Source: a bacterium
GTDB taxonomy: Bacteria > UBP15 > UBA6099 > JAJRTR01
DNA: 29,202 nt
Direction of reading: 5' to 3'
Assembly: GCA_024278215.1 (NCBI GenBank)
Contig: JAJRTR010000200.1
Span: forward strand, 1 to 29,202
The position numbers and the translations under genes are program-made. This document shows positions 4,329-29,202 of the stretch, piece after piece. The notes beneath the pieces were generated by a model. The model saw nothing but the letters and a program-made list of their open reading frames with translations. It searched no databases and was not told the DNA's origin. Within the stretch, counting starts at the first letter, position 1; each line of letters starts with the position of its first letter.

Positions 4329-4428
4329 ATCCGGCACTCCGCACAGCTTCTCTTTCACAATTGCTTTTTTTCACCCTATAATAAATCGTATCTTTTGCAA
4401 ACACGTTGCCGTGGATAATGGAATAATT

Positions 4429-5064
4429 ATGACCAGCGCCGACATGATACCATCACATAAAGCTGTCGCAGTGATACTTGCAGGCGGGCTCAGCTCGCGT
4501 ATGGGCGAGAACAAGGCTGAAATCAAATTTCGAGGAACATCCATGCTGGAACGGCTCGAACAGGAACTTTCCGCCTACTTTGAAAAAGTCATGATCTCGA
4601 CGAGGGCAGGCACGAGTAGTCAACTGGTTGCCACCGGCACAATCGGAGAGATCGTCGAAGACGTTCTGCCCGGACGCGGACCGCTGGGTGGTCTTTTTTC
4701 GGTTATGAAATATGTCGAGAGCGAACTGTATTTCGCTGCCGCATGTGACATGCCTTTTCCCGACGGACAACTTGCGGCCGGAATGATCCGGGCTGCATCC
4801 GATACCTTCGATGTGGTAATACCCCGCATGAACAATGGCAATCTTCATCCGCTGTTCGCTGTTTACAGAAGAACCTGTCTGCCCTTCATCGACGCGCAGT
4901 TGAAAACCCGAAACAACAAGATTATCGACTTTTTCGACCGTGTTAATGTCCTCTATTATGATGAAGTCCTGTTGAGAGATGCCGATCCGCAACTGCGTTG
5001 CCTTGAAAATGTGAATACACGCGAAGACCTGGAGAGAATTATCAGGATGGAAGATGAAAACTGA
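4429..5064 (+). CDS. mobA: Molybdenum cofactor guanylyltransferase
   Basis: MobA transfers GMP from GTP to molybdopterin-Mo to make the guanine dinucleotide cofactor. The product is ~211 aa, close to the family's usual size. The nucleotide-binding signature LAGGLSSRMG is at 17-26, followed by a conserved Lys (ENKAEIKF), GRGPLGGL and AACDMPF (metal-binding Asp), then HPLFAVYRR. The ATG at 4429 is preferred; a GTG at 4411 (+6 aa) and an ATG at 4444 are possible, and none has a strong Shine-Dalgarno site. It lies 100 nt after the CoxE-like gene and ~97 nt before mobB, with a repeat remnant in the second gap. A cytidylyltransferase relative (MocA) shares the fold, but the mobB neighbour favours MobA. 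Confidence 0.9.
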   Translation: MTSADMIPSHKAVAVILAGGLSSRMGENKAEIKFRGTSMLERLEQELSAYFEKVMISTRAGTSSQLVATGTIGEIVEDVLPGRGPLGGLFSVMKYVESELYFAAACDMPFPDGQLAAGMIRAASDTFDVVIPRMNNGNLHPLFAVYRRTCLPFIDAQLKTRNNKIIDFFDRVNVLYYDEVLLRDADPQLRCLENVNTREDLERIIRMEDEN

Positions 5065-5082
5065 TCAAGTAATATATCAGGT

Positions 5083-5121
5083 GAGCCGGTCGCAGCAGAA
5101 TCAGAATGTTGCAATCGGCTC
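5083..5121 (+). repeat. 39-nt remnant of the 178-nt GAGCC/GGCTC element
   Basis: This piece starts with GAGCC and ends with GCAATCGGCTC. Its body (GTCGCAGCAGAATCAGAAT) matches the right-hand end of the copies at 21713 and 29010. It looks like an internally deleted copy keeping both tips. It lies 18 nt after the mobA stop. Confidence 0.7.
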
Positions 5122-5160
5122 AGGTGCATAATAAAATTCTGTCATCGTGGAGCAACTCGC

Positions 5161-5742
5161 ATGAACGATAACAAAAGCAAAGCCGCCGGACAGGCCGGTG
5201 TCCCCCCATTAATTTCAGTGGTCGGCAAATCGAATTCGGGAAAAACTACTTTTCTTGAAAAGTTGATTGCAGAATTCAAACAGCGTGGCTGTAAGGTCGG
5301 AGTCATCAAGCACGACGCTCATTCGTTTGAAATAGATCACAAGGGAAAAGACAGCTACCGCCTTAAACATGCCGGGGCGGACACGATGATAATATCTTCG
5401 TCCACACAACTTGCAATGGTGAAAAACACGACGGAAGACACTGCTCTCGTCAATCTGCGGGCGGCATACATGATGGACATGGACATTATTCTCGCTGAGG
5501 GGTACAAGAGAGAGCGTGCACATAAAATAGAGATTTCACGACGTGAGAATTCCACGGATATACTGTGTGAGGAAGATGACTGCCTGGCCCTTGTAACAAA
5601 CTGGAACCCGCCGCTTGACGTACCGAAGTTTGCACTCGACGACGTACAGGGTATCGCTGATATGATACAGCAGCGTTTCCTTAACAACAGTAGTGGTTGC
5701 GGTCAACGGCATTGCGAAGGAACATCGAATGATCGAGTATGA
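5161..5742 (+). CDS. mobB: Molybdopterin-guanine dinucleotide biosynthesis protein B
   Basis: MobB is a GTP-binding P-loop protein that assists MobA in cofactor guanylation. The 193-aa product has the Walker A motif GKSNSGKTT (22-30), then VGVIKHDAH, SYRLKHAGAD and ILAEGYKRE, all standard for MobB. The ATG at 5161 gives the expected N-terminus. The reading frame ends with TGA at 5742, overlapping the start of moeA by 14 nt, so the two are probably translationally coupled. Confidence 0.93.
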   Translation: MNDNKSKAAGQAGVPPLISVVGKSNSGKTTFLEKLIAEFKQRGCKVGVIKHDAHSFEIDHKGKDSYRLKHAGADTMIISSSTQLAMVKNTTEDTALVNLRAAYMMDMDIILAEGYKRERAHKIEISRRENSTDILCEEDDCLALVTNWNPPLDVPKFALDDVQGIADMIQQRFLNNSSGCGQRHCEGTSNDRV

Positions 5743-6940
5743 AGAAGCGCAAAAAATAATAATTGATTCAGTGCAGGCTGTCGGGCAGGAAGAAGTGTCG
5801 CTCGAAGAAGCGCCGGGCCGTGTTCTTGCCGAAGACGCCGCGGCGGATGCGGACATTCCCGTGTGTGACAATTCGACAATGGACGGTTTTGCTGTCAGGC
5901 GCGAGGATGTAAAAAACGCGAAGCCCGGATGTCCCGTGCGTCTCGAGGTTGTCGAGACGATAGCAGCAGGCCACCTGCCTGAAAAGCAAGTCGGGCGTGG
6001 CCGGGCAAGCCGCATAATGACCGGCGCTGTCATTCCGACCGGAGCCGACGCTGTCGTCATGTTTGAAGATACAGAGAATGACGGCGAGACTCATGTGTTG
6101 ATAAGAAAACCTGTTGGTAACAGGTCGAATATAAGAAAAGCCGGAGAAGACGTGAAGAAGGGAAGCATCGTGCTTTCGGCAGGCCGTCTTCTGAAACCTG
6201 CTGATATCGGCATATTGGCTGCATCAGGTCATCCATCCGTTCATGTTTCCCGCCGCCCTGTCATTGGGATCATTTCCACAGGCGACGAGATCATCGCCCC
6301 CGATCAGCCGCTGGTCAAAGGCCGGGTGCGCAACAGCAACAGTTTCGCGCTCTACACGAAGTGCATCGCCGCAGGCACGGTTCCGCGAAGGCTCGGCATT
6401 GTTCGAGACAGCCGCGAAGACCTCGAAAAAGTATTGTCCGATGCTGCCGCGGAATGCGACATAGTACTTACCACAGGCGGCGTTTCCATGGGTAAGTTCG
6501 ACAGGGTGAGAGATACTGTCGAGACGCTGGGAAACATCATATTCCGGGGAGTGCGTATAAAGCCGGGAAAACCGCTGGTGTTCGGGGAAATATGCGGAAC
6601 TCCGATATTCGGACTTCCCGGCAATCCGGCGGCTGCTATGGTTGATTATGAACTTTTTGTAAGACCCGCACTGATGAAAATGGTCGGAGCGAAACAGATA
6701 TTCAGGCCGCTTTACATCGGTGTTCTTGATCATGATCTTAAGATTCGCAAAAGCGGTTTCGTTCATGCACTGCATGCAACGGCAACCATAAAAAAGGACG
6801 GGTATCACCTGTCCACAGCATATAAGAAGAGCCCGGGAATGCTAAGCGGCATGGTTATTGCAAACTGCCTCGCAATTGCAGATGACATGCCGAAGCAACT
6901 GCGAAGAGGCGATCTGCTGGAATTCTTCTTCGTTGATTGA
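5729..6940 (+). CDS. moeA: Molybdopterin molybdenumtransferase
   Basis: MoeA inserts molybdate into adenylylated molybdopterin. The 403-aa product shows the family motifs in order: DNSTMDGFAVR near the N-terminus, RIMTGAVIPTGADAVVM, GIISTGDEI, TTGGVSMGKFDRVRD (the molybdate/nucleotide loop, usually GGVSVGDYD), RIKPGKPLVFG and FGLPGNPAAAMV, ending in the C-terminal beta domain (about residues 330-403). The ATG at 5729 is chosen because GAAGGAA lies 7-8 nt upstream and the protein then begins MIEYEEAQ as usual; the frame is open back to 5693 but those codons overlap mobB. No gene for molybdopterin adenylylation (MogA/MoaB) is adjacent. It is the last gene of the cluster. Confidence 0.94.
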   Translation: MIEYEEAQKIIIDSVQAVGQEEVSLEEAPGRVLAEDAAADADIPVCDNSTMDGFAVRREDVKNAKPGCPVRLEVVETIAAGHLPEKQVGRGRASRIMTGAVIPTGADAVVMFEDTENDGETHVLIRKPVGNRSNIRKAGEDVKKGSIVLSAGRLLKPADIGILAASGHPSVHVSRRPVIGIISTGDEIIAPDQPLVKGRVRNSNSFALYTKCIAAGTVPRRLGIVRDSREDLEKVLSDAAAECDIVLTTGGVSMGKFDRVRDTVETLGNIIFRGVRIKPGKPLVFGEICGTPIFGLPGNPAAAMVDYELFVRPALMKMVGAKQIFRPLYIGVLDHDLKIRKSGFVHALHATATIKKDGYHLSTAYKKSPGMLSGMVIANCLAIADDMPKQLRRGDLLEFFFVD

Positions 6941-15253: not shown

Positions 15254-15385
15254 ATATAGTTGCGTTGTCGGCACAAAATTGTCCTCAACGCACTCCGCGA
15301 GTACGTCTGCGATGTTTTCGCGCCTTCGACTTGCTCTGAACAATTTCGCTTGCCATCGCTACGAACATAATTTTGCAATTGACTA
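15254..15385 (-). repeat. 178-nt element, copy A (truncated)
   Basis: In minus orientation this matches the left ~130 nt of the copies at 21713 and 29010: tip CAATTGCAAAATTATGTTCG, AGCGAAATTGTTCAGAGCAAG, the GACGTACTC...GAG core and CCGACAACGCAACTAT. The other end is lost. Its intact tip lies near 15385. Confidence 0.8.
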
Positions 15386-16784: not shown

Positions 16785-17351
16785 CTATTCCCGGTCGCCC
16801 TGAACGATGCCCGTTTGAATGCTTTTCTGCGCTTGATATTTACCTTTTTTGTCGGCATAAGATGTTTCGCACACTTCATCCGCGCCGATGAATACCACCT
16901 GCCCGATTCCCTCGTCGGCATATAGCCGCACCGGCAGCGGCGATGTATTCACGATGCAGATTGTCACGTATCCTTCCCACTCGGGCTCGAGTGGTGTGAC
17001 ATTTACGAGAACACCGCAACGCGCATAAGTTGATTTCCCTGTTACAATCGCGAGAACATCACGGGGGATGCGGAAATATTCCAGACTGCGCGCGAGCACA
17101 AAACTGTTCGGTTTCAACTCCAGCACATCGGTTATGATCTCTTCGTATTCGATGCCGCCGCCGGATTTCGGATCGATATAAGAATCTTTCCCGAAAACCG
17201 GAGCTTTGAATATGTTGCTGATACGCATATCATACCCATAAGACGAAATACCGTAGGAAACCACCCCGCCGCTCACCTGCCCGGACTCGAACGGTTCGAG
17301 CATTCCGCGTTCTTCGGACATCTTTTTTATCCATTTATCATTTTTAACCAT
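16785..17351 (-). CDS. dcd: dCTP deaminase-like protein with altered active site
   Basis: The 188-aa product aligns along its length with dCTP deaminase, which makes dUTP for thymidylate synthesis: [68 protein letters not shown], then [18 protein letters not shown] and [12 protein letters not shown]. Ser107 and Arg111 of the GKSTYAR loop match Ser111 and Arg115 of the E. coli enzyme. However, the residue matching the catalytic Glu138 (LEFxN in normal enzymes) is Cys132 (TICIVN). Activity is therefore doubtful. The ATG at 17351 has GGAG 6 nt upstream; the frame also allows a TTG at 17363. The stop is TAG. Confidence 0.88.
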
Positions 17352-17373: not shown

Positions 17374-18480
17374 TTACTTCTCGGGCTCATCGTCGAAATT
17401 ATGATATTTGTAGAACGAGTAATATGAAGCGAGGACGATAAAGTCCATGCCGGGGTGTTCGATGTTGCTGATCGGATGTACTGTCTCCCATTCTTTCGGG
17501 CTTCGCTCCCAGCGGTAGCCCCAGTGATAACCTGTCGGTTTCCATCTGTTGGGCAACTCGGCAGGGAATGCGCGCAGTTCTTTCTTAATCAGTTTATCGG
17601 TTTTCAGTCCGAAGACTTTTCCATAGAACCAGTTGAATAGCGGGTTGCCGTCTTTGCGTACAGGTTTGAACCATGTTTTTATCATATCGTCAAGGCCCGT
17701 GAGTTCGGGACGCAGAATCTTCGCGACGAAAAGGCGCTCGAACATCAGGTTCAATGAAAAATAGTTGACACTTCCCGTCCTGATAAGGTACGCCTGTTTG
17801 AATTGCAGAAAGAATTTTTCTTTTTCCGAATCGAACGTCTCGCCGGGTCCGTAGATATCGACATCGATCTCCAGTTTTTCCGCGAGCAGTTGGAACAGCA
17901 ATTTCAAATCAGTGCAATCCGTCCACGGACCCTCGCCGTAAATCCAGTTGTGAGCCTTTCCGTAAACTATTATATTGCGGGTGATGCGCGCTATTTCATT
18001 TCTGAGTTCGGGCGGTCCGTGCAGAGCGACCTCCGCCATTCCCATCAACATTTCGCCATACTGATCGATGCTTGTCTGGCCGTGCCCGTAGTCGTCGGGT
18101 ATCTCCGGCCATCTTTTGTACCTGCCGGGCTCGACCTCGATCTCCTCCCAGTATCTCAGCCCATCACGAACAAGGTCCCATCGTTCATCGAGCGCGAAAG
18201 CCGACATCGTGAGGCCTGTCCAACCCTGACTGTCGCCAAGGCCCACGTATTTAACGACTGCTGTATGCGAGTCGTCAAGTTCCGCTTCCGCAGTGCCGCC
18301 CTTATACATATGCCGCGTGACAAAGGATTCCATGTAGTGGTTGTGTTTTTCGAGGATATCCGGCGGGAGCGCCTTTTGAACCGAAGGTTCGGACATAGTC
18401 TGCCCGGCGCTGAATACCATAGCCGATACCAGCAGCAGGAACAAAAAACAACAGGTATTTCGCCGACATGATAATCTCAT
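17374..18480 (-). CDS. Secreted protein of unknown function
   Basis: The 368-aa product begins with a signal peptide: basic RLSCRRN, hydrophobic CCFLFLLLVSAMVF and a likely cleavage after the SAG region (~25). The mature part is rich in aromatic residues and helices (DLVRDGLRYWEEIEVEPGRY, TDLKLLFQLLAEKL, NPLFNWFYGKVFGLKTDKLI), and I see Trp/His/Tyr-rich stretches such as YHWGYRWERSPKEW near the end. The look is of an (alpha/alpha) repeat periplasmic enzyme, but I recognise no family. It starts 22 nt upstream of dcd on the same strand and probably shares its transcript. The start ATG at 18480 has no strong Shine-Dalgarno site. Confidence 0.78.
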   Translation of the reverse strand: MRLSCRRNTCCFLFLLLVSAMVFSAGQTMSEPSVQKALPPDILEKHNHYMESFVTRHMYKGGTAEAELDDSHTAVVKYVGLGDSQGWTGLTMSAFALDERWDLVRDGLRYWEEIEVEPGRYKRWPEIPDDYGHGQTSIDQYGEMLMGMAEVALHGPPELRNEIARITRNIIVYGKAHNWIYGEGPWTDCTDLKLLFQLLAEKLEIDVDIYGPGETFDSEKEKFFLQFKQAYLIRTGSVNYFSLNLMFERLFVAKILRPELTGLDDMIKTWFKPVRKDGNPLFNWFYGKVFGLKTDKLIKKELRAFPAELPNRWKPTGYHWGYRWERSPKEWETVHPISNIEHPGMDFIVLASYYSFYKYHNFDDEPEK

Positions 18481-21712: not shown

Positions 21713-21890
21713 GAGCCAACTGCAAAATCATGTTCGTGGCGAAGTCGAGCGAAATTGTTCGGAACAAGGCGGAGGTATAAAATCCTCGCAGGCGTACTTG
21801 CAGAGTATGTCGAGAACAATTTCGCACCGACAACGCAACTATGGACAATAGCAGCCAACCGCAGCAGAATCATAATTTTGTAATTGGCTC
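21713..21890 (+). repeat. 178-nt element, copy B (full length)
   Basis: The ends are GAGCCAACTGCAAAATCATG and ATAATTTTGTAATTGGCTC, terminal inverted repeats of ~18 nt. Inside are an AAGTCGAGCGAAATTGTTC block, a GGCGTACTTGCAGAGTATGTC hairpin core and CGACAACGCAACTATGGAC. It is exactly as long as the copy at 29010 (178 nt) and clearly alike over its length. It sits 12 nt from the stop of the gene at 21903. Confidence 0.85.
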
Positions 21891-21902
21891 AGATATTACA
21901 AC

Positions 21903-27465: not shown

Positions 27466-27596
27466 GTAAGAAATATCCCTTCGGTATTCCATAACACATT
27501 TTCGCGAAATCGCCCTGAAAGGCTTATATATGATGTCAGTTATCGTCTATTGCTGATCGACAATTGTCGACATGAACTTATTGCACATTACCCATT

Positions 27597-27763
27597 GAGG
27601 CAATTGCAAAATTCTGACTCTGCTGCGATTGTCCATAGCTGCGTTGTCGGCATAAAATCGTCCTCGACGTACTCTACAAGTACGTCTGCAATGATTTTAC
27701 ACCTACGCCTTGCACTGAACAATTTCGCTCGACCTCGCTACGAACATAATTTGCAATTGGCTC
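27597..27763 (-). repeat. 178-nt element, copy C (167 nt)
   Basis: In minus orientation it runs from GAGCCAATTGCAAATTATG to AATTTTGCAATTGCCTC and matches copies B and D, with ~10 nt missing near one end (next to CAGCAG). The tip at 27763 is 3 nt from the CBS gene stop codon (27767-27769). Confidence 0.85.
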
Positions 27764-29009: not shown

Positions 29010-29187
29010 GAGCCAATTGTAAAATTATGTTCGTAGCGAGGTCGAGCGGAATTGTTCAGAGCAAGGCGGTGGTGTAAAATCCTCGCAGGCGTACTTGTAA
29101 AGTACGTCGAGGACGATTTCGCGCCGACAACGCAGCTATGGACAATAGCAGCCGACCGCAGCAGAATTAGAATTTTGCAATTGGCTC
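29010..29187 (+). repeat. 178-nt element, copy D (full length)
   Basis: It runs from GAGCCAATTGTAAAATTATG to AGAATTTTGCAATTGGCTC, near-perfect terminal inverted repeats of ~18 nt. The core ATCCTCGCAGGCGTACTT / AAGTACGTCGAGGACGAT can fold into a long hairpin. It begins 3 nt after the DUF6788 stop codon. Confidence 0.88.
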
Positions 29188-29202
29188 AATAAGAGTGGAA
29201 GA

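Follow-up and report, generated by a model that had tools for sequence, protein, structure and literature searches.

The window, the whole 29,202-nucleotide stretch of DNA that was analyzed, encodes on its reverse strand (positions 16785–17351) a 188-residue protein of the dCTP deaminase (DCD) family that lacks the catalytic glutamate and that, from its open reading frame, translation, profile matches, and AlphaFold model, is predicted to be a dUTPase. The start codon is ATG, and an alternative TTG 12 nucleotides upstream would give a protein of 192 residues. The window protein scores above the cut-offs of both TIGR02274 (dCTP_deam, 141 bits with a cut-off of 92.8) and PF22769 (103 bits with a cut-off of 27). 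It matches the archaeal dUTPase model NF002598 weakly and falls outside that family (26.3 bits with a cut-off of 130), and PF00692, the classical trimeric dUTPase family, is absent from its Pfam matches. The neighbors of the gene give no hint of function. Immediately upstream, separated by 22 bases and on the same strand, is a gene for a 368-residue protein with no Pfam match (17374–18480), which is possibly co-transcribed with the DCD gene. Elsewhere in the window, MobA-like, MobB, and MoeA genes stand in a row in a molybdenum cofactor cluster (4411–6940). A dispersed intergenic repeat of about 130–180 nucleotides, with copies 79–92% identical and in both orientations, is found at 15256–15384, 21713–21891, 27596–27763, and 29010–29188, as well as on contig 89 of the same genome (L126, positions 1–141). 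In the copy at 21713 the two ends are complementary (GAGCCAA...TTGGCTC), and the sequence folds into a single long hairpin (−67.8 kcal/mol); the repeat has no match in Rfam and resembles a MITE or REP element present in many copies.

In E. coli Dcd the catalytic residue is Glu138, a role to which the titles of deposited mutant structures also point. In an alignment of the window protein with 199 relatives, E. coli Dcd, and the Pyrococcus furiosus dUTPase, Cys132 lies opposite Glu138 of the E. coli enzyme and Met105 of the P. furiosus enzyme, and it also stands opposite the Glu of the solved structures 4dhk, 3km3, and 4a6a (M. tuberculosis). The E. coli Dcd sequence used carries S, R, H, D, and E at residues 111, 115, 121, 128, and 138, as expected, and that of the P. 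furiosus enzyme is identical to PDB 9ln0, with Met in the Glu column. The initial annotation, which read the segment at 16945–16965 as TICIVN with a TGC codon where the catalytic Glu should be, is thus confirmed, with the codon at 16956–16958 (reverse strand). Its further reading that the frame is intact and that the Ser and Arg of GKSTYAR are kept also holds, as the gene is a full-length open reading frame of 188 residues in which Ser107 and Arg111, the equivalents of E. coli S111 and R115, are present in the motif (residues 105–111, 17019–17039, reverse strand).

The remainder of the active site is retained. Glu122 (16986–16988, reverse strand) stands in for E. coli Asp128 and P. furiosus Asp95, and this conserved acidic position is a Glu in nearly all members of the DCD subtype to which the window protein belongs. 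Gln151 (16899–16901, reverse strand) corresponds to Gln124 of the P. furiosus dUTPase and to Ala157 of the monofunctional E. coli Dcd. Along with the GKSTYAR motif, which is over 95% identical in both groups, S107, R111, E122, Q151, and the C-terminal Y165/Y172 are more than 95% conserved in proteins with and without the Glu. Aside from the Glu column itself, the largest difference between the groups is a loop at residues 51–70 (17142–17201, reverse strand), a region of low model confidence, in which F51, T52, N53, F64, S68, and V70 are conserved in the Glu-bearing group and not in the Glu-less one, so that the window protein too has lost the FTN...S.V pattern. A changed loop together with a preserved phosphate side looks, as far as the alignments go, like the loss of one of two functions. 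Among Glu-bearing relatives, those with Phe directly after the Glu come mostly from genomes with a separate PF00692 dUTPase (15/19) and those with another residue mostly from genomes without one (73/96); this position may mark monofunctional versus bifunctional enzymes, in a comparison that is confounded with lineage.

It is likely from these alignments that dCTP deaminase activity is lost along with the Glu. An enzyme that still deaminates dCTP with another base, for example through water activated by a different acid, would account for the retention of the fold and most of the pocket, and the initial annotation had raised another mechanism of this kind. We consider it highly improbable, since the Glu column varies freely, tolerating Ala, Gly, and Met, and no invariant acidic residue takes its place: the best candidate columns in the Glu-less group are 40%, 33%, and 69% acidic. 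The same tolerance speaks against the residue now at this position having taken on a catalytic function of its own. The suggestion that the protein may be inactive seems right for deamination and probably wrong for the protein as a whole. A catalytically dead sensor or subunit that binds dCTP or dTTP and regulates something else, close to the nucleotide-binding regulator also proposed at first, would explain why both the Glu and the conserved loop are gone; it is rather unlikely, less so than a deaminase with another base and yet less likely than a dUTPase, as the phosphate-site residues are so uniformly kept in both groups and no apparent partner gene adjoins.

Loss of the Glu is, by the alignments, a clade-wide state and not an oddity of the window gene. 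All six other genomes of the same order lack it, with Ser or Asn instead, and of about 190 proteins in this DCD subtype 42 are without it. These 42 have Ser (23), Ala (10), Gln (3), Gly (2), and Cys, Asn, Met, and Thr (one each) in its place; on the question raised at first, whether close relatives share the Cys, the answer is that they share the loss of Glu and not the Cys itself. Examples occur in Endomicrobiia (L032, L034, L048), Goldiibacteriota (L073), Zixibacteria (L076), and a deltaproteobacterium (L045). An ordinary dCTP deaminase in which a single codon is wrong through faulty sequencing or assembly, conceivable in a draft genome of 207 contigs, was considered and rejected as an explanation. 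It is very unlikely, to the point of being negligible, because the six same-order genomes and 35 further relatives also lack the Glu, making the window protein a member of a 42-sequence group, and because its neighboring residues and loop 51–70 match that group as well.

A tree of the first set of sequences, built with the motif columns removed, separates 17 Glu-less from 59 Glu-bearing rows on one branch (bootstrap 96, SH-aLRT 86). A larger tree, built by a faster method and with an outgroup, requires six changes in the Glu column, three of which are forced by supported branches. The Glu is present in 9/9 outgroup DCDs of another subtype, which makes it the probable ancestral state. In one sister genus, four Glu-less genes have dN/dS values of about 0.03–0.06, indicating purifying selection and thus working genes. 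In another genus, three proteins (L206, L207, and L209, from genomes G107, G422, and G294) have Glu, Ser, and Ala, respectively, at the catalytic column; none of the three genomes has a dCMP deaminase match, and the two Glu-less ones also have no ThyA or ThyX match. This genus represents a recent loss of the Glu that is at odds with the dCMP deaminase pattern described below. Two Glu-bearing DCDs (L211 in G066 and L213 in G285) carry an in-frame insert that resembles an intein; it follows GKSTYARC immediately, within the active-site motif.

The genome that contains the window, a draft of 207 contigs estimated to be 95% complete, has one DCD, and the second dcd that the initial annotation suggested looking for was not found in it. 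The other enzyme suggested there, a CMP/dCMP deaminase elsewhere in the genome, is present: contig 89 encodes a dCMP deaminase (G000:C89; 6e-35 with profile TIGR02571) with HAE and PCxxC zinc motifs that matches the S. mutans dCMP deaminase at 2e-25. It gives this genome a source of dUMP that is independent of dCTP deamination. A thymidylate-synthase-like (ThyA-like) gene is present as well, and ThyX was not found in the draft. MazG-family genes are present, while searches of the draft detected no PF00692 match at E ≤ 0.001 and no other specific dUTPase.

This combination is usual across the group. Using PF00692 and TIGR02571 (E < 1e-12), we compared gene content in a first sample of 79 genomes, 18 with a Glu-less and 61 with a Glu-bearing protein. 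A dCMP deaminase is present in 16/18 and 9/61 of these, respectively, and for PF00692 the counts are 1/18 and 24/61. We then set this pattern down as a prediction for a second sample of 23 Glu-less and 54 Glu genomes, in which it held for dCMP deaminase (18/23 versus 6/54, p = 2e-8); PF00692 occurs there in 1/23 versus 14/54. Pooled, the counts are 34/41 versus 15/115 for dCMP deaminase (Fisher p = 5e-16) and 2/41 versus 38/115 for PF00692 (Fisher p = 3e-4), although these p-values overstate independence, as the genomes are related by descent and each group clusters on the tree. The number of switches available to a phylogenetically independent pair test, about six with three of them well supported, is too small for power. 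The absence of PF00692 is by itself weak evidence, since 77/115 Glu genomes lack it as well. Seven of the 41 Glu-less genomes have no strong dCMP deaminase match, and two of these contain fragments (G390, at a contig end, and G199). Each of the 41 has a single DCD locus, an additional match in G118 being its dUTPase. A profile search for the dimeric dUTPase family (PF08761) gave no match, with none in any control genome either, and so carries no weight on whether that family is absent.

MazG-type pyrophosphatases occur in 39 of the 41 Glu-less genomes and could remove dUTP there, as the reading of the window protein as a dead regulator would require of them or of other pyrophosphatases. The family is not dUTP-specific to our knowledge, and being present nearly everywhere it does not discriminate between explanations; a dead regulator would also leave these genomes with no detected specific dUTPase at all. 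An unlikely though more serious alternative is a pyrophosphatase acting on dCTP, or on dCTP and dUTP. Such an enzyme would bind dCTP and cleave off its phosphates, and the resulting dCMP would be converted to dUMP by the dCMP deaminase, so that deamination would have passed to another enzyme, acting on the next intermediate. This explains the link to dCMP deaminase no less directly than a dUTPase would, and it fits an ancestor that bound dCTP; the E138A mutant of E. coli Dcd was solved with dCTP (title of 1xs4). It would, however, leave dUTP removal unexplained in genomes that, with PF00692 in so few, would have no specific dUTPase. The characterized Glu-less relative also speaks against it: P. 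furiosus P45, annotated as a dCTP deaminase, is described in 'Life without dUTPase' (PMC5122711, citing Hogrefe 2002) as an efficient dUTPase without deaminase activity. There is a small chance that the bacterial Glu-less proteins at large are dCTP or dual dCTP/dUTP pyrophosphatases feeding a co-inherited dCMP deaminase; the route to dTTP would then have its deaminase step shifted to a second enzyme, with the old DCD keeping the hydrolase half only.

As nearly all of the Glu-less genomes lack an ordinary dUTPase and most would make dUMP through a different deaminase, the Glu-less protein is most likely the dUTPase of the cell. We consider it probable that the window protein is a DCD-fold enzyme acting as a monofunctional dUTPase (dUTP → dUMP + PPi), and we infer that it hydrolyzes dUTP, does not deaminate, and forms a trimer. 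With the deaminase Glu lost, the amino group of cytosine would no longer be removed, while the retained triphosphate site (Ser, Arg, the acidic residue, and a motif-IV-like Gln), which hydrolyzes dUTP in bifunctional relatives, would continue to do so. Most dUMP would then come from dCMP through the zinc dCMP deaminase, with a further contribution from dUTP hydrolyzed by the window protein. The ancestor may have been bifunctional and may have lost deamination once a dCMP deaminase was at hand, and loss of the Glu would accompany a change in where dUMP comes from, with dCMP taking the place of dCTP as the substrate that is deaminated. The role of a dUTPase is to keep uracil out of DNA, and many bacterial genomes are reported to have none (PMC5122711). 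Some of these genomes could be explained by Glu-less 'dCTP deaminases', which are probably dUTPases, and a single residue, Glu versus anything else, would separate deaminase from dUTPase in annotation. We found no description of the bacterial Glu-less clade in the literature searched, which left out most subscription journals.

The AlphaFold model of the window protein (pLDDT 92) is closest to 4dhk (Z 24.0, 1.2 Å over 165 residues), followed by the bifunctional M. tuberculosis enzyme 2qxx (Z 23.2, 179 residues), the DCD-fold dUTPases 9ln0 (Z 21.6, 151 residues), 8y1w (Z 20.6), and 2zdc (Z 17.5), and the classical dUTPases (Z about 11); likeness of fold alone does not decide its function. Classical trimeric dUTPases (PF00692) belong to the same superfamily, carry a small residue in place of the Glu (E. 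coli Dut), and catalyze the reaction predicted here, but the window protein is below the search threshold for this family and retains DCD-type N- and C-terminal parts. With canonical dCTP deaminase (EC 3.5.4.13) it shares the family and the Ser111/Arg115 pair, but not the catalytic Glu. Bifunctional dCTP deaminase:dUTPases (EC 3.5.4.30; M. jannaschii, M. tuberculosis, B. halodurans) have the same fold, phosphate-site residues, and motif IV Gln, but convert dCTP to dUMP using the deaminase Glu that the window protein lacks. The nearest proteins in both fold and sequence (49–55% identity across the aligned structure) are the DCDs 4dhk (Burkholderia thailandensis) and 3km3 (Anaplasma), which have sequence motifs in common with it, including those at the C-terminus, but keep the Glu (LEFSN), whereas the group of the window protein has lost it together with the FTN...S.V loop pattern. 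A DCD-fold dUTPase without the Glu is, given P45, already known in Archaea, where such enzymes are represented by P. furiosus P45 (9ln0), Thermococcus pacificus (8y1w), and Sulfolobus tokodaii (2zdc). Like the window protein, these combine a DCD fold and a dCTP deaminase annotation with a replaced Glu and a preserved Ser, Arg, acidic residue, and Gln; they differ in being shorter and archaeal, with the bacterial protein about 26% identical to them and short of the NF002598 cut-off. Because the Glu-less proteins of bacteria nest with DCDs of the 4dhk/3km3 type, their loss of the Glu looks separate from the archaeal one, and the window protein most likely resembles the archaeal DCD-fold dUTPases in how it would work while standing outside their sequence family.
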